From Ruania alkalisoli (GTDB lineage Bacteria > Actinomycetota > Actinomycetes > Actinomycetales > Beutenbergiaceae), in contig NZ_CP063169.1 in the NCBI RefSeq assembly GCF_014960965.1, positions 2,327,581 through 2,391,580 of the forward strand: a DNA stretch of 64,000 bases, read 5' to 3'. The stretch's first letter is position 1. Every line of letters begins with the position of its first letter. A program made the position numbers and the translations under genes. Below, piece by piece: positions 51,979-64,000 of the stretch. The notes under the pieces are model-generated. The model did no database searches, was not told the origin of the DNA, and saw only the letters and a program-made list of their open reading frames with translations.

Positions 51979-52175
51979 GACCATCCCAGTGCGGTTCACT
52001 CAGCCCGAGAATGCTATCTCCCCTTCTCGCTTCTCGCTTAAGTCGCAAGGCGCCGGCTCGCAGATCCAAGGTCAAGATTTCCGGGTTGATCTGCAGATTC
52101 CTGCGGCGAACTGATTCCGTCAGACTGTGGAGGTATAGAAGCATTCGGGCGCCCGCCCAAGATCTGGAGACACGA

Positions 52176-53285
52176 ATGATGAGCACCGCAACCCTAACCA
52201 TCACGTCGGCCGAAGAGCCACGCCTGCGCCAGGTCATGAAGGACATCCAGAAGGACGTCGCCGCGTACTACGCCGAAACCGCCCGAGGCGGTGACCTCGG
52301 CGTGCACGCCCGCAACTGGCTCAGCCGGGTCCAGAACCTCAACGACCTACTCACCGAACGGCTCGGCGACAAGGTCACCTATCTGGCGCTGTTCAAGCCC
52401 ACGCCGACACCCGGAGCCGAGCTCATCAACGCGGTCAAGTACGCCCGCAACGTGGACCAACACCTGATGTTCGAGGTCTCACCGAGCGAGGACGGCCTTA
52501 TCGGTGGCGCCCACGGCATGCGGACCTACGGCTGCTGGCGCCCCATCCCTGCCGCCACCCACACTGAGCTGCGTCCGGGAACGCAGGCTCTTCTGCCCGC
52601 GTACCAGGCGAACATGGAGGGCAAGGAGCTGACGGGCACGATGCTGGCCGTACTCCGTTTCTTCGCCGACATCGCGCCGCAGATCGTGCACCGCGACCAC
52701 CGCGGTGAGTGGACCGGCTTCCCACTCAAGAGCCAGCCCGCGGTCGGTGATCCCTTGCATCCCGAGGAGCCTGTCGGCGACATCGCGGCCGCGAACGTCT
52801 GGCTCAATGGGCGCCGCCCAAATGGGGACCTACGAGTCGTCATTGGCCAGTTCACAATGGAGGAGTCGCCCTACCTTGTCGGGTTCACTTTCGCCGACCA
52901 ACTCTCCTTCTCCCCGTTCGTCGAAACACCTGAGCAGGTCACCTACGACATGGCCACAGGGTTCGCCTACCTCCAGGGCGACGTAGCCGCCAACGTCGAG
53001 AACGTCACCGACAAGTTCCCCATGCCCCCAGACGGTGCCGTCCTCCGCAGCCCCAAGGACGTGACGACCTGGGCAACCCCACTCACCCAGACCAGCTACG
53101 GAACGGACTGGATGACCGGCTTGACCCCGACAGTTGGCGGCACATCGTCTCTGTCGAGCACCCGGGTTGGCTCCCGGACTATGTTGCGTACGAGCAACGC
53201 CGGGCGTTCCGGCTGTACGCCCAGGTGCCGCCGCGCTAGCCCGTGCCCGGAGCAGCAACCGCGTGGCAGCGGTTGGTCGAGGTGA
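52176..53285 (+). pseudogene. Unknown island gene with an apparent frameshift near 53.06 kb
   Basis: An open frame of 369 residues beginning MMSTATLTITSAEEPRLRQVMKDIQKDVAAYYAETARGGDLG. No family is recognised. It looks coding up to about residue 295 (PDGAVLRSPKD). After that the frame becomes Ser/Thr/Arg-rich and unlike protein, while another frame reads sensibly: DDLGNPTHPDQLRNGLDDRLDPDSWRHIVSVEHPGWLPDYVAYEQRRAFRLYAQVPPR then a TAG at 53237-53239. The simplest reading is one indel at about 53055-53070. It may be a recent inactivation, a sequencing error, or a recoding site. GGAGA precedes the ATG. Confidence 0.6.
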
Positions 53286-53519: not shown

Positions 53520-56495
53520 TCACGCCAAGCGGATCCGCAGTCGACGGGCCCGTTCCTCGAACGCGTGCTGGCCACCTTCGAGGATCTCGCAAACTTCGTT
53601 CCGAATTGTCGGATTCTCGAGTCCCCCAGTGGTGTAGGTAATCTCCGGTAGCGCTCCAGGTCTGTGGGCGCTGGCGTTGGCAACAATCACCTGATCGGCA
53701 TCCGTGTTGACCACTAGGTTCGCGTTGTGGGTCACGATGATGATCTGCCGACGCCGTCTTGTCTCGACGAACCGGCCGACGAGCTCGTCGAAGATCGACT
53801 TCGGATCCAAGTTCTCTTCGGGCTGGTCAACGATCAGGGGGCGATCGTCCGACCGGTCGACAGCAAGGTAGAGCAGCAGTAAGACGATGCCTCGCGTGCC
53901 CGGTGATAGCTGCTCGATCTCCACGCCGTCGTACTGAACGCCGTACTTGATCGAGATGTGCGCGGTGTCGTTGAGCCACGACGCAATCCCGTCCGCCCAC
54001 TTACGGAAGGCCTGCTTGTCGGCTCGCGGTGCCTTGGCTTGCTGGATGAAGTGCTGGTCGTGCTCGTCCCTGAAACGCGCCATCGCCTCGGCTACCTCGG
54101 CACTGGCGCCCGACTCCCAGGCAGGCAACAGCTTCTCGCGCACCTGGTTGAGCAGCTCACCATGACCGCGGAACTCTCCCGTCCGCAGGTCTAGCAAGGC
54201 TTCGCCCTGCTTCGCCCACGCCTCGATGTCGACCACTCGCTTGACGCTGAAAGTGAGCTTGCCGAGCGTCCCCGACTCTTCACCGAGCATCTGCCTGAGA
54301 GGCGAATACATCGCCTCCAGCTGCTCCTGTTCCTGGGCAAAGCCGTCGAAGAGTGACGCGTAGGCGTGCTTGCGCTTGAGCATCAGTGCCTTCACCCGAT
54401 CGGAAGCGCCTTCCGCCTGCTTGATACTCGCGTTGAGGGAGACCAGGGCCGCCTCCGTCTTGGCGATCTTGTCGTTGAGTGTTTGCAGCTGTCGCTGCTT
54501 GTTGGCGTCTAGCCCGATCAGCTCGCTGAGTCGCCACGCCTCGGCGCGGAGAACATTCAGGGTCCCGGTCGCTAGATCGACATCGTCGGCGACGTACGGT
54601 GGCAGTTCGTGAGCTGGTTTTGTGGGCTTGGGAAGCGCGGGGCCGACCAGTTCACCGGTTGCCTGACGTAGCGCAGTCAGGCGCTGCTCAACGATCGACG
54701 CAGGATCGCCGGTGAAGCGAAGGTTGAAATTCTGCCATTCGGTTGTGGTCAGACCTGCACTTGCATAGTCACGTTCCAGCTCTACGCGGATCGCGGGTAG
54801 CCGCCGATCGGTGACGTCCTTGATGGCGTCAGCCAGGTCCGAGAGCGACTTGTCGCGTCGCTTGAGGGCATCGACCTCTGCCTGTTTTGCCACTACTGCG
54901 CCGTTAACGGCTTCGAGGCGCTGGGCTCGGGCCTCGCCACCGACGACGACCAAACCTCCACGCGCTCGCTTGTCCTCCGCTAGCAAGGCAGTGAGTCGCA
55001 CCTGCTCCTTCTTAAGACCTGGCAGTTCGTCACCCGCGACGCGTTCGGTCTCGATCTGCTCCGCGAGGTCCTCCATCTCGTTCTGGGCGAACCGCCGAAG
55101 GTCGCGTCCGTGGCTCGCCCGCAGATCGAGAAGCTCGCGGAAGCTCGATGCCCCGAGCCGGTCCTCGTAGAGATGCGCCTCGAAGATGACCCGCTCGATT
55201 TCGGCCAGCAGCTCATCGGTGATTCCTTCGGACGAGCAGAGGCGTTCAACGAATTGCTGCGATAGATACTGGACACGCGGCACGTCGTGATCGAAGGAGA
55301 AGTTGGGCGGAAGCTCGGTGTCAGAGGTCTCGCCGTCAGCCCACGTCAGCTCGACCTTACTCCCGGCGAGATGCCTTCGAGCACGCTGCAAGAAAGTCTG
55401 GTCGGACTCGTTGGTGCTCGCGGCTCCGGCGCCGGCAGCGATGAGATCTGCCAGCGCGGTCTTGCCAGATCCCCTGGCCCCGATGATCGCGACCAGTCCG
55501 GGAGCAAGCTCAATTTCAGGCGTCGCCATCCAGTCCGCATCGGACACCACGATGCGTTCGATGACCCGGTAGTCGAGTGCGCCCTTCTGCGGCTGCTCAC
55601 CAACGATCGCCCGCTCCTTCGGTTCGAGGCAGGCTTGTCGAAGGCTCTCGAAAGTCGCGTCCCCCTTGATCCACGTGTAGCGATCACCATCCGGTTTCCC
55701 CACGCGGTCGAGCTTGTGGGCGTCGCTGCCATGCAGGCACACCTTGCGCCCGTCATACCTCGTGGTCAGCTCGTCGGCACTCAACACGCCCTCGCCCAAC
55801 CAGAACGTGCGCTGCGCCGGTGAACTCGCAAAGATCACGCGGGCCAGACGCTCGATTTCAACACGAACGGCTTCGAGCGAACCGCCGTCATCACGAACAC
55901 CGGAGGTGCCGTCGGTACTACCGGCTGCCGCCCCGATGATGATGTTCTGTTGTGCCCAGGCGCTCTCGTCGAGCGAGTGCTTGAGGTTGTCGAGCGACAC
56001 CTTGAAGAGGTTGGTACCGGCCGCCAGTGCGGCATCATCATCCTTGATCGACGAGTCGTGAGCTTTGCCAAGGCGGATCAAGTCAGCCGGGTCACATACG
56101 TACGACTCCCGTCCCGCCGAAAACTTGAGCGTTCGCAGGAATCGTCGTGCCTCTTCGACGTGATTGGGGTCCTCTGGTGAAACGAGCAGGTGGATGTTGA
56201 CGGGGTGGTCGTTCTTCGTAGCAGTCGGTAGACGCAGCTCGATGTTCGGGAAGATAAGGCCCACATCGGGAAGACGGCCCGCCGTGTGGAACTCGTGCAC
56301 CTTCTCGTACTCGTCGATACTGCAGTAGTCCGTTACGCCGAGGGCCTCGATCTTCGGCTCTGCCTGTTCTATGCGTGTGAGGTAGGCCTCCCAAGCATCC
56401 TGCCCGAACTGGTTGTTCATTGCGGTACCTGGCGTGTGGATGTGTGGGTCCCATCGACGCCACACCGCCCCTCGTGGATCTGCTTGCGACCTCAC
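53520..56495 (-). CDS. PHP-domain ABC/SMC-like ATPase (TrlF type), putative defence protein
   Basis: About 991 residues. An N-terminal PHP phosphoesterase domain (1-300) has metal motifs HIH in WDPHIHTPG, VTDYCSI, NIELRL, HGSDAH near 257. An ABC-type ATPase follows: Walker A IIGARGSGKTALAD near 335, a long coiled-coil middle (about 430-800), signature LSPGTRGIVLLLLYLAV, Walker B RPLIVDQPEENLDPKS near 885, and the switch His in IIIVTHNANLVVN. PHP domains commonly act as nucleases or phosphatases; ATP-gated nucleic-acid attack is an inference. GTG at 56495 overlaps the stop of the small gene upstream (GTGA) and gives VRSQADPRGAVWRRWD; a frame-internal ATG is an alternative. Confidence 0.82.
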   Translation of the reverse strand: MRSQADPRGAVWRRWDPHIHTPGTAMNNQFGQDAWEAYLTRIEQAEPKIEALGVTDYCSIDEYEKVHEFHTAGRLPDVGLIFPNIELRLPTATKNDHPVNIHLLVSPEDPNHVEEARRFLRTLKFSAGRESYVCDPADLIRLGKAHDSSIKDDDAALAAGTNLFKVSLDNLKHSLDESAWAQQNIIIGAAAGSTDGTSGVRDDGGSLEAVRVEIERLARVIFASSPAQRTFWLGEGVLSADELTTRYDGRKVCLHGSDAHKLDRVGKPDGDRYTWIKGDATFESLRQACLEPKERAIVGEQPQKGALDYRVIERIVVSDADWMATPEIELAPGLVAIIGARGSGKTALADLIAAGAGAASTNESDQTFLQRARRHLAGSKVELTWADGETSDTELPPNFSFDHDVPRVQYLSQQFVERLCSSEGITDELLAEIERVIFEAHLYEDRLGASSFRELLDLRASHGRDLRRFAQNEMEDLAEQIETERVAGDELPGLKKEQVRLTALLAEDKRARGGLVVVGGEARAQRLEAVNGAVVAKQAEVDALKRRDKSLSDLADAIKDVTDRRLPAIRVELERDYASAGLTTTEWQNFNLRFTGDPASIVEQRLTALRQATGELVGPALPKPTKPAHELPPYVADDVDLATGTLNVLRAEAWRLSELIGLDANKQRQLQTLNDKIAKTEAALVSLNASIKQAEGASDRVKALMLKRKHAYASLFDGFAQEQEQLEAMYSPLRQMLGEESGTLGKLTFSVKRVVDIEAWAKQGEALLDLRTGEFRGHGELLNQVREKLLPAWESGASAEVAEAMARFRDEHDQHFIQQAKAPRADKQAFRKWADGIASWLNDTAHISIKYGVQYDGVEIEQLSPGTRGIVLLLLYLAVDRSDDRPLIVDQPEENLDPKSIFDELVGRFVETRRRRQIIIVTHNANLVVNTDADQVIVANASAHRPGALPEITYTTGGLENPTIRNEVCEILEGGQHAFEERARRLRIRLA

Positions 56496-56803
56496 TGGAT
56501 ACCCAGCTCTCTGACTGAGCGGCTCGCCGGATGCTTGAACTGCCGCGCGTTGGGGTGTCGGCCTGCTCCGTCCAGGCTCAGCGGTCGCTGGCTCGCGACG
56601 CAAACCGGGTCGCCTTTCGTGGCCGACAAGTCCTCGGTTCGAGCGGCGACGCCTTGGCGGACAAAACGGGCATACCCGGTCCCACTGCTGACGTTGTCGG
56701 CGTCGATGAACATCAGGCCGATGCCGGGGAAGGTCAGTCGCCTGCCGGTGGCTAGCGCGGTCTCTTCAGTTACCCAGGTCATCGAGTCATTTGTGTGTGT
56801 CAC
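56492..56803 (-). CDS. Small protein between the OLD and PHP-ATPase genes
   Basis: 103 residues, family not recognised. Sequence includes MTWVTEETALATGRRLTFPGIGLMFIDADNVSSGTGYARFVRQGVAARTEDLSATKGD and a Pro/Arg/His-containing tail. The main support is architecture: its GTG start overlaps the OLD stop by 4 bases (GTGA) and its TGA stop overlaps the GTG start of the PHP-ATPase in the same way, so ribosomes would pass from gene to gene. A short open frame fitting both junctions exactly by chance is unlikely. It could be an adaptor, inhibitor or sensor subunit, or a remnant of a larger gene. Confidence 0.6.
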   Translation of the reverse strand: MTHTNDSMTWVTEETALATGRRLTFPGIGLMFIDADNVSSGTGYARFVRQGVAARTEDLSATKGDPVCVASQRPLSLDGAGRHPNARQFKHPASRSVRELGIQ

Positions 56804-58740
56804 GATGAGATCCCCAATGCGGCGAGTAGCGCAGCATGCGCTTGCTTCAGCGCGAGGACGCCCTGCGAGCTCAGCAGCACCTCGTCGAGTTCGATGATGT
56901 GGTTCGCGATCTCCTGCTTGGTCGGTACCCGCCACCCCTGGCTCGTGGCCCAGGTCTCCAACGCAGTGGCCCACGGTGCGGCCGTCGCATCAGGCAGGGT
57001 TGGTGGTTCGCCGATGGTGACGTTGGCGTTGAGATCGCGAAGCAGCGTGGTGAACGCGTCTCGGTAGAAGTCTGGTTCCAGGGTGTTCTCGATGCCATGG
57101 ACGCCGATCGCCACGATCCGGTCCTCCGGTATGGCACGACCGATCGCCTCCGCGAGTCTCTCTCCCCCGCCGTCACCGTCGGCGAGGAACGCAACCTTGG
57201 CCGCTTGAAAGTCAAGCTCCGGGTAGGAGTCCTTGGGCATCTCAGACAGTCCGGGCGCCACCTGATACGGCAGGCTGTCTACCCCGATCGCCGCGCGCAT
57301 CAAGGTCGGGAGCACGATCATGTCGGTCGCGCCTTCGGCGATGACCGCACAGCGCGCGGGCGTAAACGCTGCGGCCGAGGCGCCCATAGCGAACATCAGC
57401 GAGGTAAATCCCCCGACCCCTTGCCGCCAGAAGCTGTTCTCCACATGGCTCGTCTCGTCAGAGTCGGGCACGACCGCGCGGATACCGGCACCAAGATCGG
57501 CGGGCAGACAGCCCGGCGAGTGCGTGGTGTAGATGATCTTGTCGGCTTTGTCCTGTTTGGCGAACATCTGCACGAGGTCGGCCTGAGCGTCGATGTGCAG
57601 GCGGGTCTCGGCCTCATCGATCAGGAGGATTGTCGCGCGTCCACTGTCTCGTGCAGCGAGAAAGGAGGTCAGAGCAACGAACATCCGAAGCCCGGCGCTT
57701 CGCTCGTCGAACACCGATGCATGTACGCCATCTTCGACAAGACCGATCCGGAGGATGCTGTTCTCGACGTTGAGTTCGACCTTCAGGTCCGACTGCTGCC
57801 ATGCATTCTTGAAGTAGTTGGCGAGCGTGATGTTCGCCTTGTTCTTGATGGTGTCCCTACGGGACACCTGGCCGGTCTGCACGGCCTGGACGAGTGCGTT
57901 CAAGTCGAGTCCGGCTAACCGCGTCAGGTTTGCGAGCGCTGCCGGCACGTCGCCGAGCAGACCGTCATCGAGGGTGTAGGTAGAAGCCAGCGTTCGATCT
58001 GCCTCGGTGAACATCGCCACGTCTGGGGTGCGGTTCCAGAGTTCTTCCTTAGTCGTCTCCGTGGGGTCGTCACGATCGACCCACGCTCCGAGTGAAGGGA
58101 GCAGCCGCTGCAGAGAGTCGGTATCGGCGAATGCCTTCAGAGCTTCGACGTCCTCGTCGGCTCGTTGGCGCAACGCCTCGATCGGTTCTCGTTCATCGAC
58201 CGGGGCGGCGAGGTACGTGTCAAGGTCTTGCTGGAGCAACCGAAGCTCATCGAGCAACGGTCCGCCGTCAAGCGGTTCGGGTGCTTCCGCGTCCTCGGCC
58301 GCGTCAATGGGAAGTGGTTCTAGGACGGTGGTCGCTGCCAGAGAGTCACTCAAGTCGACTGCCAGTTGCTTCAGCGCTACCTCGGATTTGCGAGGTGCAG
58401 GCCTAACCGTAAAGCTAGGCCCTTCACCGTCGGCGCGACGGCTGACGAAGAACTCGGTTGGTGCCTCCTCGAGTTCGAGGTCCGCAAGATCCTTGCGGAC
58501 CTCGTCGCTGACCAGGTAGCGCAAGCTGACGACTGGAGTGGAGTCGGCGATGCCCGTCGATGCGCGCGACCGCTGTGCTGGAGCCAGAGCGTCGGAGGCG
58601 TCCACGTAGGCAAGTGCCTTGAGGAGCGTCGTCTTACCTGCCTCGTTTGGTCCAACAATGGCAACGAGCTTCTGGTCGAGCTTGATCGTTGTATCGAGGA
58701 GTCGGCCGGCGCCCCGGAGTCGTGCGGAGATGAGTCTCAT
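56800..58740 (-). CDS. OLD-family ATPase with TOPRIM nuclease domain, putative defence protein
   Basis: 646 residues. The N-terminal ABC-like ATPase begins MRLISARLRGAGRLLDTTIKL with Walker A VGPNEAGKTTLL at about 25-36, and Walker B TILLIDEAETRLHID near 370 followed by the switch IIYTTHSPGCLP. The C-terminal TOPRIM domain has the catalytic Glu in CAVIAEGATDMIVLP (about 465) and Asp pair in VAFLADGDGGG (about 517). OLD proteins are nucleases of phage defence and retron/Gabija systems. GGAGGA lies 8 bases before the ATG at 58740. First gene of the three-gene operon. No UvrD-type helicase follows, so it is not a standard Gabija pair. Confidence 0.87.
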   Translation of the reverse strand: MRLISARLRGAGRLLDTTIKLDQKLVAIVGPNEAGKTTLLKALAYVDASDALAPAQRSRASTGIADSTPVVSLRYLVSDEVRKDLADLELEEAPTEFFVSRRADGEGPSFTVRPAPRKSEVALKQLAVDLSDSLAATTVLEPLPIDAAEDAEAPEPLDGGPLLDELRLLQQDLDTYLAAPVDEREPIEALRQRADEDVEALKAFADTDSLQRLLPSLGAWVDRDDPTETTKEELWNRTPDVAMFTEADRTLASTYTLDDGLLGDVPAALANLTRLAGLDLNALVQAVQTGQVSRRDTIKNKANITLANYFKNAWQQSDLKVELNVENSILRIGLVEDGVHASVFDERSAGLRMFVALTSFLAARDSGRATILLIDEAETRLHIDAQADLVQMFAKQDKADKIIYTTHSPGCLPADLGAGIRAVVPDSDETSHVENSFWRQGVGGFTSLMFAMGASAAAFTPARCAVIAEGATDMIVLPTLMRAAIGVDSLPYQVAPGLSEMPKDSYPELDFQAAKVAFLADGDGGGERLAEAIGRAIPEDRIVAIGVHGIENTLEPDFYRDAFTTLLRDLNANVTIGEPPTLPDATAAPWATALETWATSQGWRVPTKQEIANHIIELDEVLLSSQGVLALKQAHAALLAALGISS

Positions 58741-59425
58741 ACAACGTCCTCCGGTCCGTTGGGCTGGTCGGTCACATCCTCCCGATTTGGCGTGGACGTT
58801 CAGCTCGCGATTGGGGCAGCGTCGGAGCGTCCGGCTGTGGAACCCTCCTGGCTCGCTGACAACTCTACCGACGAGATCCGACGCAGCGAGGGAGTTCGGA
58901 GCAGCCGATTCAGACGTGGCGTCGAACTGACCCGGAAGGTCGACTCTTGCTCCGTAGCCCGGTGTCCACCAAACGATGTCAAGGCCGCCCGAGCTTCTAT
59001 CTGAGGGATAGCTGGGCCGGAAGGAACTCCGCAGCCGTGGAGGTGACGTCCCCGCGTCTTTACGAGTGTCTGCGCGAATCCCGATTCGTGCCGTCACCCA
59101 GCGAAGACGTCCCTGTCAATTGCACCGCGCCCACGACAAGCCGGTCAGGCTCCACCGGCGCCCTTATGCACCTCCGCCTCCCACTGTCTTGCAGCGCCCG
59201 CCTTGAGACCCCAGTGTCTCGAAGGAAGACCCCAGTGTCTCGAAGGACGAACGTTGAACGGGCCGTCCATCCGTGGATGCAATCCGCCGCGTGAGGACGA
59301 TCGACTCTGACAGTGGGGGCATGCGACCGGCGGGCCAAAGCACCGAGCTGCGCTCGCATTGCGGTCTCGGCCCGATCCAGTGTGTTAGTCCATAAGTGTC
59401 GGACTCCGATGCCAAGATTGAAGAC
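58741..59425. other. Divergent intergenic region between the OLD operon and the Wadjet operon
   Basis: About 0.68 kb without a convincing gene. It must contain the promoters of both defence operons. Open frames inside it (for example 58947-59294 on the plus strand) are basic, low-complexity and have no family features. A tandem 21-bp repeat is at 59206-59247, and CCACTGTC near 59181 is inverted as GACAGTGG near 59310. Confidence 0.5.
59206..59247. repeat. Perfect 21-bp tandem duplication upstream of jetA
   Basis: Two exact head-to-tail copies (59206-59226 and 59227-59247). Each contains AGACCCCAGTGTCT, with AGAC and GTCT as short inverted arms, so each copy could be a binding site. They lie about 180 bases before the jetA start. 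Confidence 0.7.
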
Positions 59426-60877
59426 ATGTCCGCTTTGGCGTCGGCTCTCGCGTATCAGCGCTTGGTCTCTGAGCATGCATCGTTGCGCTTGCTCCGGGCG
59501 GATCATGCTGCCGTTGCCGCAGCTCTGCTGGCGGCTCATCTCGGCAAGCCGGGCGCACGTCTGGCGGCGGACGATCTGTACGAGTTGATCGATGCCGATC
59601 TTGAAGTCCTTCGTGATCACTTCGAACTGCCGCAAACGGCGCGCGCCTACTGCGACGCCTGGCGAAGGGACGGCTTCATCGTCCGACGTCCGTCGGTCGG
59701 TATTCGCGGGGAGACTCTGGAGCTCTCCTCCGAAGGGCACGTCGCTCTGCGGGTCTTCGCCCAACTCGATGAGCCACGGTCCACGGTCACTCAGTCCCGC
59801 CTGTTGAGTCTTGCCCAGGCGGTTCGACAACTCGCGATCGACACCGATCCCGAGGCGGACCGACGGCTGGCAGCACTGCACGCTGAGCGCGACCGCATCG
59901 ACGAGGAAATCGCCCGCATCAGGACCGGGGACTTCGAGGTCCTCGACAACCGGTCGTCGCTAGAGCGGGTCAACGAGGTCCTCCTCCAGGCTCAGGATCT
60001 ACCAGCCGACTTCGCTGGTGTCCGGTCACGCTTCGAACGGCTTAATCACGAGCTTCGAGCTCGCATCCTCGAAGTCGACGACGCTCAGAGCAGCGTCCTT
60101 GACGATGTGTTCCGGGGCGTTGACCTGATCGAGTCGTCGGATGAGGGACAGACCTTCAGCGCGTTCTCGATGCTCATCCGAGATCCCGAGCGCTCATCGG
60201 CGCTGGATAGCGATCTGTCAGCCGTGCTGGACCGGGACTTCGTTCGCACGCTGTCTCCAGAAGCGAGGCGAACGCTTCGTTCGCTGGTGCACGATCTAAA
60301 GCACAACAGCCGCGAAGTGCACGCCGTACTCACCGAGTTCGCCCGAGGGCTGCGACGCTACGTGTACTCACAAGAGTTTCAGCGCGACCGGGCGCTCCGT
60401 GACGCGCTTCAGGAAGCACTGGCGGCGGCGGTCCTCGCCAGTCGTCAGGTGCGACCGACATCCGCATTCGGTCAGGACATCGAGTTGTCCTCGCTTCGCC
60501 TGTCCAGCGTGGGCGAGATCAACGTGCACGATCCGACCGAGTACGACACCGGCACCGCCCTTGGAGACGCCGAAGCCGGCACCGTGGACCTGATCGCCCT
60601 GGCCGCCATCGCACGGGAGAGCGAGATCGACTTCACCGAGTTGATCGACAACGTGAATCTCGTGGTCGCGCAACGAAGCCCAGTGTCCGTCGGTGAGGTG
60701 CTTGGCCTTCGTCCCGCCACCCAGGGGCTCGCCAGCATCGTCGGGCTGCTGTCACTCGCGACCACGTACGGCAAGGTAGATCCCCTGCATACCGAGCACC
60801 TTGACTGGCTGGGCGCCGACGGCGTGGCTCGCGAAGCCGACGTAGCGGTTCACACCTTCTCTGGGGTGATCGCATGA
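59426..60877 (+). CDS. jetA: Wadjet anti-plasmid system protein JetA (DUF3375, kleisin-like)
   Basis: 483 residues from the ATG at 59426 (GTG at 59396 is an alternative). The N-terminus ALASALAYQRLVSEHASLRLLRADHAAVAAALLAAHLG matches the DUF3375 winged-helix start, and the C-terminal part INVHDPTEY..VDLIALAAIARESEIDFTELIDNVNLVV..SVGEVLGLRPATQGLASIVGLLSLA is the family signature. JetA is the kleisin subunit (MukF-like) of the JetABC SMC motor that extrudes plasmid DNA. jetB overlaps by ATGA. Identification also rests on the jetB and jetC genes that follow. Confidence 0.9.
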   Translation: MSALASALAYQRLVSEHASLRLLRADHAAVAAALLAAHLGKPGARLAADDLYELIDADLEVLRDHFELPQTARAYCDAWRRDGFIVRRPSVGIRGETLELSSEGHVALRVFAQLDEPRSTVTQSRLLSLAQAVRQLAIDTDPEADRRLAALHAERDRIDEEIARIRTGDFEVLDNRSSLERVNEVLLQAQDLPADFAGVRSRFERLNHELRARILEVDDAQSSVLDDVFRGVDLIESSDEGQTFSAFSMLIRDPERSSALDSDLSAVLDRDFVRTLSPEARRTLRSLVHDLKHNSREVHAVLTEFARGLRRYVYSQEFQRDRALRDALQEALAAAVLASRQVRPTSAFGQDIELSSLRLSSVGEINVHDPTEYDTGTALGDAEAGTVDLIALAAIARESEIDFTELIDNVNLVVAQRSPVSVGEVLGLRPATQGLASIVGLLSLATTYGKVDPLHTEHLDWLGADGVAREADVAVHTFSGVIA

Positions 60878-61509
60878 CCGAGGGCACCGTGGATTTGGTC
60901 GCCCCAGAAGGCCGACTGTGGTCGGAGGATCTTGGCACCCTTGCTGAGCAGTCGCGCCGTGCGCTTCTTGAGATCGTCCGAGGTCCGTACCTCTCTGGTC
61001 AACGCCGACCGGTTCTGTGGGCAGCGCTGATCGCGGATGAGCATGCGATTCGCTCTCGGCTTCACGACCTGTTCCTCGACCTGGTGATCGATCGAGTTGA
61101 TGAGTTCGCGTTCGCCCGTAAGGTGCGGACGACCGAGATCGATGTCCCCAGCCCGATGCGAACTGAGAGCCTCAACTTCCTCGATACGGCGATGCTTCTG
61201 GTCCTCCGCCAGTTGTTGCTCGCCTCGCCCGGAGAGAGTCGGGTCATCGTCGGCCAAGACGAGGTCTACGAGCGGCTGATGGTCTACCGGACTGGTGACG
61301 AGAAGACATTCCGGGGCAATCTCAACGGGGCGTGGGGACGCATGGCGAACCGCTTCCGCGTGATCCATGTAGTCGAGGAGGACAGGGCCGAGATCTCCCC
61401 GGTCCTCAAGTTCATCCTCGACCATGACCGCGTCCGTGCTCTCACCGAGCAGTTCCAGAACATCGCGGCGGGTGCCACATCGGCCGCCACATCTGAAGGT
61501 GAGCAGTGA
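60874..61509 (+). CDS. jetB: Wadjet protein JetB (DUF4194, MukE/KITE-like)
   Basis: 211 residues. Accessory winged-helix subunit of the JetABC complex. Family features: LAEQSRRALLEIVRGPYLSGQRRPVLWAALIADEHAIRSRLHDLFLDLVIDRVDEFAFARKV, ESLNFLDTAMLLVLRQLLL, and FRGNLNGAWGRMANRFRVIHVVEEDRAEISPVLKFILD. The ATG overlaps the jetA stop and its own stop overlaps the GTG of jetC (GTGA), so the three subunits are translated as a unit. Confidence 0.9.
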   Translation: MTEGTVDLVAPEGRLWSEDLGTLAEQSRRALLEIVRGPYLSGQRRPVLWAALIADEHAIRSRLHDLFLDLVIDRVDEFAFARKVRTTEIDVPSPMRTESLNFLDTAMLLVLRQLLLASPGESRVIVGQDEVYERLMVYRTGDEKTFRGNLNGAWGRMANRFRVIHVVEEDRAEISPVLKFILDHDRVRALTEQFQNIAAGATSAATSEGEQ

Positions 61510-64000
61510 GCGGCACCGGGACCCTCCTTGATGCCGCCGGGGCCCCGATGGGGCAGTGGCGGCTGGTCGAGGTGCAGCTGGCGAACTGGGGCACCTTCGA
61601 TGGCGCGATCTATCGTGTTCCCGTGGCGCGCCGGGGCCACCTGATCACCGGGCCGTCGGGGTCGGGCAAGTCGTCCCTGCTCGACGCGATCGCAGCGGTG
61701 CTCACCCCTGACAAGTGGTTGCGGCTCAATCAAGCCGCGCAGGGGCCGGGAAGCCGTGACAGCCAGCGGACGCTGCTGACGTACATCCGGGGTGCCTGGA
61801 GCCGCACTGTCGATGAGACCGAGGACCGCATCGTCAGCGCCTACCTGCGGCCACGTGCCACTTGGAGCGGCATTGTGTTGAGGTTCGATGACGGTGCCGG
61901 TCAGGTCTTTTCACTGTGCCGTCTGTTCTTCCTCCGCTCCACCGCAACCGCTGCCGCCGACATCAACGATCTGTGCATGCTTGAGCGGTCCGCGGTGGAT
62001 CTGCGTGACCTTGAGCCCTTCGCGAGTTCCGGTCTGGAGACACGCAAGGCGCAGCAGAACTGGCCAGACGCGGTCGTCACGAGCAACCACGGTCACGGTC
62101 GGTTCTATGCGCGTCTGCGATCCACCTTCGGCATTGCAAACGAGACTGCTCTTCAACTACTACACAAGACCCAGTCAGCGAAGAGCCTCGACAGCTTGGA
62201 CCAGCTCTTCCGCGATTACATGCTGGAGCGTCCCGCGACCTTCGATCTCGCTCAGACGGCCGTGGATCAGTTCGGGGAGCTCAGGGACGCTCACGATCGG
62301 GTGGTCCAGCTGAGGCAACAACGAGACCATCTCTTGAAGCTGCGGATCCATACCGAGAGGTATAACGCCGCGCGTGCCGCGGCCGCCGAGGCGCGACTGC
62401 TGATCGACGCGGTGGAGCCCTACCAGCGGCGTCGGAGTCTCGACCTCGCAACAGCTGAACTTGATGAGTTGAATGAGCGTCTGGTGGTTCTGCGGATCGA
62501 GACGGAGAAGGCCGAACAGGCCTACCTCGATGCCGACACAGCCTGGGACGCGGCGAACAAGCAGGCGCTGCAGCTCGGCGGCGACCAGGCAAATCACCTC
62601 CGCGACCGCATTCGCGCAGCCGAGCAAAACGTCGAGGACGTGCGCAACCGCTGGAAGAGGTTTGCCACCGATCTTGAGAACGCAGGGATCGAGAGCGCAC
62701 CGGAGGACGCGACGACGTTCGCGGAGCTGATGTGCGCCATCGAGGAGATGCTGGGAGACGGCGCGACCGTCGCCGGACCGTCGCACGAGCAACTGGAACG
62801 TCTCTCGAAAGCTCGGCGGGAACACCGACGTCTCGAACGCGCGGTGACATCGCTACGGTCAACGGGCAGCACGGTCCCCGATCACTTGCTATCCATCCGT
62901 ACCATGCTCGCCGAAGAATTGTCCGTCCCCTCGACGGCGCTCCCCTTCGCAGCCGAGCTGATTGAGGTCGACCCCTTCTACTCGGCATGGACCGGTGCCA
63001 TCGAACGGGTGCTTCGGCCCCTCGCGCTGACCTTGCTCGTTCGTTCCGAACACCTCCGGCAGGTTCGGCGCTGGGTTGACGCCCACCGCATCCCAGGGCG
63101 ATTGGTATTCGAAGAGGTGGCGGCAGAGTCTCCCCCGCCGCGTCCCGCCCGCAGTGACAACTCGCTCGTCAACCGGGTGCGGGTCAGTCCGGGACCTTTC
63201 GCTGCGTGGCTCTCCGGGCAACTTTCCGAGCGCTATGACTTCGCCTGCGTCGACTCACCCGACCTGCTTGACAGCCACGTCCGGGCCGTAACCATCAACG
63301 GACAGGTCAAAGCCTCGCGGACCCGCTACGAGAAGGACGACCGCCAGGCGATCGACGACCGCGGCCATTGGGTGCTCGGAGACCGTGAGGCGAAGCTGGA
63401 AGCTCTTGTCCGACAACTCACCGCGGCGGCGAGCGAGCTCGCTGACGCGGCTGGTGTCGTCGAGCGAATCGCCGAGGCGCAGGGAGAAGCCCAGAAGCGC
63501 CGAGGCATCCTTGAGACGCTCCGTGGTCGTCATTGGCACGATCTCGACAACCAGTCAGCAACCCAGGCAGTCCGCACCCTGCAGGAACAGCTCAGTGACC
63601 TCACCCGAGACGACAGCGATCTGATCGCAGCCATCCAGGCTGAGGAACGTGCCCGGGCCGCTCGCAAAGCTGCTGGTGACGATCGGGTCCAAACTCAAGT
63701 CAGCCTGTCGAGCTCGGAGAGCACTGCAGAGGAACTGGCAGGACTCATCGGAAGAATCAAGGCCGACCTGGCCTCAGGGACTGTCCCAGCGTTGAACGAG
63801 ACTACTACTGCGGCACTGAACGAGCGGTTCCGTTCCGTGCGCCGCAACGTGACGCGCGATGTCATCGGCGAGATCGGGCAACAGGTCACACGTCGCCTAG
63901 GCCAGGAGCGGGATGATGCCTTGCGGGATGAGAGGAAGGCGGGCGAGGAATTGGTCTCGCTGGCCACGCAGTTCAACGGGCGCTGGCCCGCAGCGGCTAT
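61506..64000 (+). CDS. jetC: Wadjet protein JetC (SMC/MukB-like ATPase), cut by the window end
   Basis: Open frame from the GTG at 61506 to the right edge, about 831 codons. Starts with QWRLVEVQLANWGTFDGAIYRVPVARRGHLITGPSGSGKSSLLDAIAAVLTP: the ATPase head with Walker A GPSGSGKSS near residue 55-63 and the NWGTF motif of MukB/SbcC-like proteins. Long coiled coils follow from about residue 270, with a globular (hinge-like) part around 480-600. The signature and Walker B lie beyond the window. JetC is the motor that loops DNA; the nuclease JetD should be encoded next. Confidence 0.9.
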   Translation, partial: MSGTGTLLDAAGAPMGQWRLVEVQLANWGTFDGAIYRVPVARRGHLITGPSGSGKSSLLDAIAAVLTPDKWLRLNQAAQGPGSRDSQRTLLTYIRGAWSRTVDETEDRIVSAYLRPRATWSGIVLRFDDGAGQVFSLCRLFFLRSTATAAADINDLCMLERSAVDLRDLEPFASSGLETRKAQQNWPDAVVTSNHGHGRFYARLRSTFGIANETALQLLHKTQSAKSLDSLDQLFRDYMLERPATFDLAQTAVDQFGELRDAHDRVVQLRQQRDHLLKLRIHTERYNAARAAAAEARLLIDAVEPYQRRRSLDLATAELDELNERLVVLRIETEKAEQAYLDADTAWDAANKQALQLGGDQANHLRDRIRAAEQNVEDVRNRWKRFATDLENAGIESAPEDATTFAELMCAIEEMLGDGATVAGPSHEQLERLSKARREHRRLERAVTSLRSTGSTVPDHLLSIRTMLAEELSVPSTALPFAAELIEVDPFYSAWTGAIERVLRPLALTLLVRSEHLRQVRRWVDAHRIPGRLVFEEVAAESPPPRPARSDNSLVNRVRVSPGPFAAWLSGQLSERYDFACVDSPDLLDSHVRAVTINGQVKASRTRYEKDDRQAIDDRGHWVLGDREAKLEALVRQLTAAASELADAAGVVERIAEAQGEAQKRRGILETLRGRHWHDLDNQSATQAVRTLQEQLSDLTRDDSDLIAAIQAEERARAARKAAGDDRVQTQVSLSSSESTAEELAGLIGRIKADLASGTVPALNETTTAALNERFRSVRRNVTRDVIGEIGQQVTRRLGQERDDALRDERKAGEELVSLATQFNGRWPAAA

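Follow-up and report, generated by a model that had tools for sequence, protein, structure and literature searches.

Do three genes joined end to end by overlapping stop and start codons form one defence machine, or do they only look like one? The question is raised by a locus in a 64,000-nucleotide stretch of Ruania alkalisoli DNA (NZ_CP063169.1, positions 2,327,581 to 2,391,580; hereafter the window), which lies in a genome of 4.45 Mb assembled as one contig. Direct reading confirmed three leftward frames, an OLD-type ATPase, a 103-residue protein and a PHP/ABC ATPase of the TrlF family, with GTGA overlaps at 56800-56803 and 56492-56495. The original prediction had taken this arrangement for a dedicated multi-subunit defence system. 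Four-base overlaps are common in bacterial operons and are little informative alone, and the analysis led elsewhere: the locus is probably part of a defence island of stacked, mostly independent known modules, with a gene relic between OLD and TrlF. In what follows, G000 is the window's own genome, G562 (locus L060) is Nocardioides sp. LHD-245, and G685 is a genome from the sample of the LHD-245 genus. The features concerned are these:

56800..58740, minus strand: OLD-type ABC ATPase of 646 aa, ATG start, TOPRIM-like motifs towards the C-terminus (sequence reading, PADLOC and Pfam matches, motifs)
56492..56803, minus strand: 103-codon relic of a PDC-S06/AAA_13 zinc-hook ATPase gene, GTG start (alignment to the Brevibacterium gene)
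53520..56495, minus strand: TrlF-family PHP/ABC ATPase, 991 aa, GTG start, motifs intact (NCBIfam match, motifs)
56800..56803, minus strand: GTGA overlap of OLD and the relic, identical to the OLD/ATPase junction in Brevibacterium (L059)
56492..56495, minus strand: GTGA overlap of the relic and TrlF, also present in L060 and G685

When the three proteins were searched against PADLOC and other profile collections, as the original prediction had proposed, OLD and TrlF matched families and the 103-residue protein matched none, at E 0.1 in Pfam, NCBIfam and PHROGs or at E 1 in PADLOC. A counterpart of the small frame was found in Brevibacterium, where an 85%-identical OLD overlaps, via the same GTGA, a full 855-aa AAA_13 zinc-hook ABC ATPase that at L059 matches the PADLOC candidate PDC-S06 at E 3e-169. 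The 103-codon frame aligns in frame to this gene in three pieces: codons 1-15 with codons 1-15 of the ATPase (blastp E 0.009), 16-55 with 82-121 (E 3e-11) and 53-82 with 362-391 (E 2e-5). For counting, the pieces were extended gap-free to codons 16-56 and 58-95, of which the last is weak (52% identity at the base level). If the Brevibacterium gene is taken to represent the ancestor, the alignment offsets imply two in-frame internal deletions of 198 and 729 bp, and roughly the last 450-465 codons are missing at the 3' end. A single alignment with Brevibacterium runs on from the 3' end of OLD into the opening codons of the small frame, at 80% DNA identity. Across the L059 ATPase and six relatives, 16 of the 103 columns never vary, the PADLOC assignment within this set being that of the Brevibacterium protein alone; the window frame retains nine of them and loses seven, among which are the Walker-A G, G and K and one zinc-hook Cys. 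Measured against PDC-S06 by P-loop, zinc hook and C-terminal half, it falls short on each and survives in three pieces only. Judged by these alignments, the frame is the remnant, with two internal deletions, of a PDC-S06-type ATPase gene that was once the neighbour of OLD.

The frame was also considered as a conserved small subunit, and this was rejected. A direct search of 394 genomes of the class gave matches in 74 at E <= 0.1. Its own copy scored 2.4e-66, and the next best match (8.8e-4, in G486) fell on the P-loop of a full-length gene related to the Brevibacterium ATPase, with no OLD upstream within 524 bp; the remaining 72 genomes gave weaker matches still. Plasmid matches were weak (eight records, E 0.03-0.8); in each of the four that were opened, the match fell around the P-loop of an AAA ATPase gene or a truncated copy of one. 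The ATPase was matched in 3 of the 394 class genomes at E <= 1e-20, and the rest of G000 and of G562 gave no full copy of it at E <= 1e-5.

The protein sequence of the remnant drifts, with largely unconstrained amino-acid change. G685 carries a second, diverged copy of the trio in which OLD is 87% identical to that of the window and the 103-codon frame only 54% at the protein and 77% at the DNA level, with no gap and no stop. Between these two copies, the small frame shows 54 nonsynonymous and 17 synonymous changes, a ratio of nonsynonymous to synonymous rates (dN/dS) of 1.2 (1.2-1.5 for transition weights 1-3), compared with 0.16 for OLD. Changes at codon positions 1/2/3 number 25/29/17 in the small frame and 46/39/177 in OLD, so that the third-position excess of OLD has no counterpart in its neighbour. 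When the Brevibacterium gene serves as outgroup, the changes found only in the window number 16/10/13 over the three positions, those found only in G685 5/11/4 and the shared ones 16/14/28, as if constraint had been lost before the window and G685 copies parted. Compared directly with the Brevibacterium ATPase pieces, the frame gives dS 0.78 and dN/dS 0.57, and OLD compared with its Brevibacterium counterpart gives 0.67 and 0.125; since 0.57 is close to the mean of 1 and 0.125, it roughly fits drift along one branch and not the other. At transition weight 2, dN/dS relative to the ATPase pieces is 0.90 for the G685 copy and 0.71 for that of the window. Because the middle frame is a remnant whose protein sequence drifts, a dedicated three-subunit system is not supported, and this central claim of the original prediction is abandoned.

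OLD and TrlF, moreover, occur apart from each other. A scan of genome contigs with OLD, of a kind that detects only close relatives, gave four loci, in Nocardioides LHD-245 (L060, 97%), Brevibacterium linens and B. antiquum (85%) and N. albidus (79%); the relative in G685 is 87% identical. Close OLDs (79-97%) were found in six other genomes, where they stand beside relic and TrlF in two (G562, G685), a full ATPase in three (G561, G564 and G774, Brevibacterium) and an hsdR-methylase operon in one (G563). At L061:4903-9941, OLD comes after a type I hsdR gene, joined to it by a GTGA overlap, and an N6-methylase gene follows. The original prediction had been ready to fall if the trio did not recur or if the small frame was missing or not conserved in relatives. 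The trio was found again, in G562 and G685, yet its small protein lacks conservation, and the 103-codon frame is absent beside four of the six close OLDs (three with the full ATPase, one with neither). In the three Brevibacterium genomes (L059:8001-12505, L062, L103), the OLD and PDC-S06-type ATPase pair with its four-base overlap could be a two-gene system of its own.

More distant OLDs have other neighbours again. Eight OLDs at 34-39% identity had no match to the small frame, TrlF or the PDC-S06-type ATPase in the fetched flanks (0/8; among them are one on a contig of 3.9 kb, one at 1.6 kb from a contig end and two apparent near-duplicates). Of 199 genomes related to that of the window, 21 gave an OLD at E <= 0.001, the only close ones being its own copy and an N-terminal fragment in G005 (L004), which comes after, and shares a GTGA overlap with, a gene carrying a restriction-endonuclease domain that we take to be type III res-like. 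At E <= 1e-30, the counts are 11/196 for the genus of G562 and 3/57 for that of G561, trio genomes included. Among the loci examined, no intermediate with OLD, full PDC-S06 and TrlF in a row was seen.

TrlF was found at E <= 1e-60 in 2 of the 394 class genomes and in 5 of 294 genomes in the family of G562 (trio genomes included), and its relatives occur in 1122 plasmid records (40 listed, six of these opened). None of ten TrlF loci outside the trio had OLD, the relic or a PDC-S06-type ATPase in the fetched flanks (for L064, only 1.5 kb upstream). In G918 (L111, G918:C3:289000-303000) the BREX genes pglX-pglZ-brxL directly precede trlF with an ATGA overlap, and in G346 TrlF lies downstream of an unassigned 292-aa gene, again with an ATGA overlap. 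The TrlF of G616 is divergent from a 394-aa gene (L112:6255-7439, plus strand), with no Pfam match at E 0.001, whose start looks AlbA_2-like by eye. The upstream leaders of TrlF in G918, G616 and G630 have no clear similarity to the tail of the relic. In viral contigs, exact peptide patterns found no relatives of OLD or TrlF. With such varied partners, both genes have the look of modules that join now one operon, now another.

As for what these two proteins are, OLD matches Pfam AAA_15 (E 9.5e-16) and AAA_21, and among the best 25 of 113 PADLOC families it gives partial matches to AriA, AbiLi, GajA and Old models (best E 8.5e-16). It contains GPNEAGKT, IDE and TTHSP, as expected of an ABC ATPase with Walker A and B, followed towards the C-terminus by EGATD at 469 and DGD at 521, the PADLOC Old model aligning to 362-486. 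TrlF is a full-length member of NCBIfam NF045780 (650.8 bits against a cutoff of 350, residues 8-986, E 5.7e-195) and contains HIHT, TDY, HGSDAH, GARGSGK (Walker A), DQPE and THN; the TrlF family name is absent among the best 25 of the 44 PADLOC families that it matched. The strings of both proteins we take to be Walker A/B, TOPRIM-like and PHP-like motifs. Since Pfam gave neither a TOPRIM nor a PHP match at E 0.1 in the trio proteins, the TOPRIM and PHP names rest on the motifs, the NCBIfam match and the PADLOC Old alignment.

The right-hand neighbour of OLD is a Wadjet system, and the following features frame the trio:

59396..60877, plus strand: Wadjet JetA (DUF3375; Pfam and JetA1 model match)
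60874..61509, plus strand: Wadjet JetB (DUF4194; Pfam and Jet model match)
61506..64000, plus strand: Wadjet JetC, 1113 aa, extending past the window edge (flank read, Jet model match)
L068:3425-4579: Wadjet jetD, next in the genome beyond the window (profile match)
52011-53285, plus strand: 424-aa frame left of TrlF, no hit above cutoff

A type I Wadjet, divergent from OLD, is present as complete jetABCD (window 59396-64000 plus L068:87-4579), and all four genes match the JetA1-JetD1 models at E 1.1e-74 or better. A truncated system had been suspected since jetC was unlisted in the window, and this was ruled out by reading the flank, where jetC crosses the edge. The defence setting given by the original prediction thus held, together with the OLD-type and TrlF assignments. 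A block of about 14 kb, from window position 51999 to just past jetD, is 95-96% identical to Nocardioides sp. LHD-245, and the similarity stops at its end. G000 and G562 likely come from different genera, since about 200 or more genomes represent the genus of G562 and only seven others that of G000. Frames for IS110- and IS3-family transposases lie left of the trio (NCBIfam scan). The 424-aa frame had no match above cutoff in Pfam, NCBIfam or PHROGs; its conservation reaches about 97% in both G562 and G685, with a change of frame in the match there near codon 371.

Several observations weigh against a pure relic and against mutually independent modules. The 103-codon frame is open, of the same length and overlapped at both ends in 3/3 copies seen, with no indel and no stop between the window and G685. 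Its dN in that comparison (0.29) is below the dS of OLD (0.44), so some constraint is possible. Between the window and L060 its dN/dS is 0.46, from only seven changes (four nonsynonymous, three synonymous), which decides nothing. The order OLD-relic-TrlF is retained in two other genomes, in one of which OLD is 13% and the small frame 23% diverged at the DNA level. In addition, the three Brevibacterium ATPases are 99.4-99.9% identical, with one difference between two of them, and so are not independent witnesses.

In simulations of this divergence, the reading frame survives substitutions alone in about 22% of cases. Between the window and L060, indel events number 8 per 51 substitutions in the intergenic DNA between OLD and jetA, and 1 per 2 in the stretch between TrlF and the 424-aa frame. 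The chance of no frame-shifting event in the small frame is 8e-6 at the 8/51 ratio and 0.02 at a ratio of 0.05, a rough comparison in which the reference stretches are possibly unusually indel-prone and the divergence of the block is mosaic. Indels between genes and none in the frame argue that it has been kept better than drift predicts. The mosaic (2.5% divergence upstream of OLD, 5-22% in OLD and the 103-codon frame) indicates that recombination was involved. The G685 copy (L094, L114) is mosaic as well, its upstream intergenic DNA being 96% identical to that of the window and its OLD only 86%.

This frame keeping is most simply put down to selection for coupling the translation of TrlF to that of its neighbours, and next to a functional, fast-evolving peptide. 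It is possible, and we put it forward tentatively, that the relic is kept as a pure translation bridge: an open, overlapped frame would be selected, ribosomes would pass from OLD to TrlF in a fixed ratio and the amino acids would be free to drift. The frame has no catalytic role and would at most carry ribosomes across; as such a bridge it would be a protein-coding gene whose product does not matter. That the 103-residue protein is instead a working subunit, an adaptor or inhibitor made from a piece of the ATPase and completing a three-part system, we regard as rather improbable. The open frame, its equal length, the overlaps kept in three copies and the missing frame-shifting changes, where several were expected, would all fit such a protein, but no amino-acid constraint was detected, the catalytic and zinc motifs are gone, and OLD and TrlF are found without it.

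A genuine two-part system of OLD and TrlF, with the relic as a mere spacer, is unlikely. The pair is present in three genomes with differing right-hand neighbours, Wadjet adjoining it in G000 and G562, and in G685 a neighbourhood without Wadjet and with a serine recombinase gene nearby. Yet the TrlF of G685, 94-97% identical, is broken by two insertions and a frameshift while its OLD frame is intact, each protein is seen alone or with other partners elsewhere, and the common DNA may simply reflect the transfer of one island. The broken TrlF, the relic and the transposase frames to the left could also be read as signs that the whole trio is decaying and inactive; this is hardly credible for the window, where the OLD and TrlF frames and motifs are intact and their dN/dS against L060 is 0.22 and 0.10. 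Most likely OLD and TrlF are separate ATP-gated nucleases of a Wadjet-bearing island, as family and context suggest for their activity, triggers and independence. The island is probably mobile, with the type I Wadjet on one strand and OLD, relic and TrlF end to end on the other. Both proteins would presumably be gated by ATP and respond to infection or foreign DNA, OLD by nicking DNA as a nuclease and TrlF as a metal-dependent nuclease or phosphoesterase of the PHP type.

The case illustrates that an operon with tight overlaps may pass for a purpose-built multi-subunit system when deletions in a defence gene leave an in-frame stub between two working modules. Operon overlap and co-occurrence, from which new systems are usually proposed, would have been misleading in this instance. 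TrlF, in addition, emerges as a defence-island add-on, found after BREX, after OLD or alone.

Among known systems, a relation to Menshen (NsnABC) had been suggested by the original prediction. As outlined in PMC10952713, Menshen combines a DUF262 gene with an OLD nuclease and is thus likewise a multi-gene system that includes one. The trio has a TrlF protein in place of a DUF262 protein; no DUF262 was found at E <= 0.1 in the three proteins, and the only Nsn model among the PADLOC matches listed was NsnB, a weak partial ATPase match (E 7.3e-8), so the identification was dropped; the literature matches listed for the Nsn names were mostly acronyms with no bearing on it. OLD nucleases related to GajA and PARIS share with the window protein an ABC ATPase domain and TOPRIM-like motifs in one chain. 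Gabija differs in that no GajB UvrD-like helicase was matched among the neighbouring proteins scanned (Pfam, NCBIfam) and the GajA match is partial. For PARIS, the AriA match is partial (among the best 25 of 113 families), and no TOPRIM Pfam model was found among the neighbours scanned. The 103-codon frame resembles PDC-S06 as the remnant of such a gene and differs from it by lacking two internal segments, the last 450-465 or so codons, the Walker A and the zinc hook. At least four papers contain the name PDC-S06. Type I Wadjet is present in full beside OLD, but as a transcription unit separate from the trio, and no jet match was found in the G685 stretches fetched.

For TrlF itself, a literature search on TrlF, phage defence and the PHP domain gave none naming TrlF among the matches listed, and among listed matches that did name it, only PMC7554251 concerned this gene, by title. 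The Photorhabdus TRL operon described there is trlR-trlF-trlG, with a small gene of 79 aa that is hypothetical and has homologues annotated as transcription factors, and a TrlG carrying AlbA_2 and HATPase_c_4 domains; the phenotype reported is restriction of growth by temperature, the mutations lying in TrlG and none in TrlF (PMC7554251). Both operons hold three genes, including a small one and a full-length TrlF-family member, but trlR- and trlG-type partners were not seen in the trio, whose TrlF has OLD with the relic and the 424-aa frame as neighbours.

A further parallel is offered by the auxiliary effectors of BREX. Among the listed literature matches on OLD nuclease/TOPRIM defence operons no PHP domain term occurred, and the main text of PMC12839542 does not mention PHP. 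It does describe OLD/TOPRIM effectors attached to BREX operons (PMC12839542), that is, nuclease modules added to other defence operons, and TrlF directly after the BREX genes in G918 is placed in the same way.

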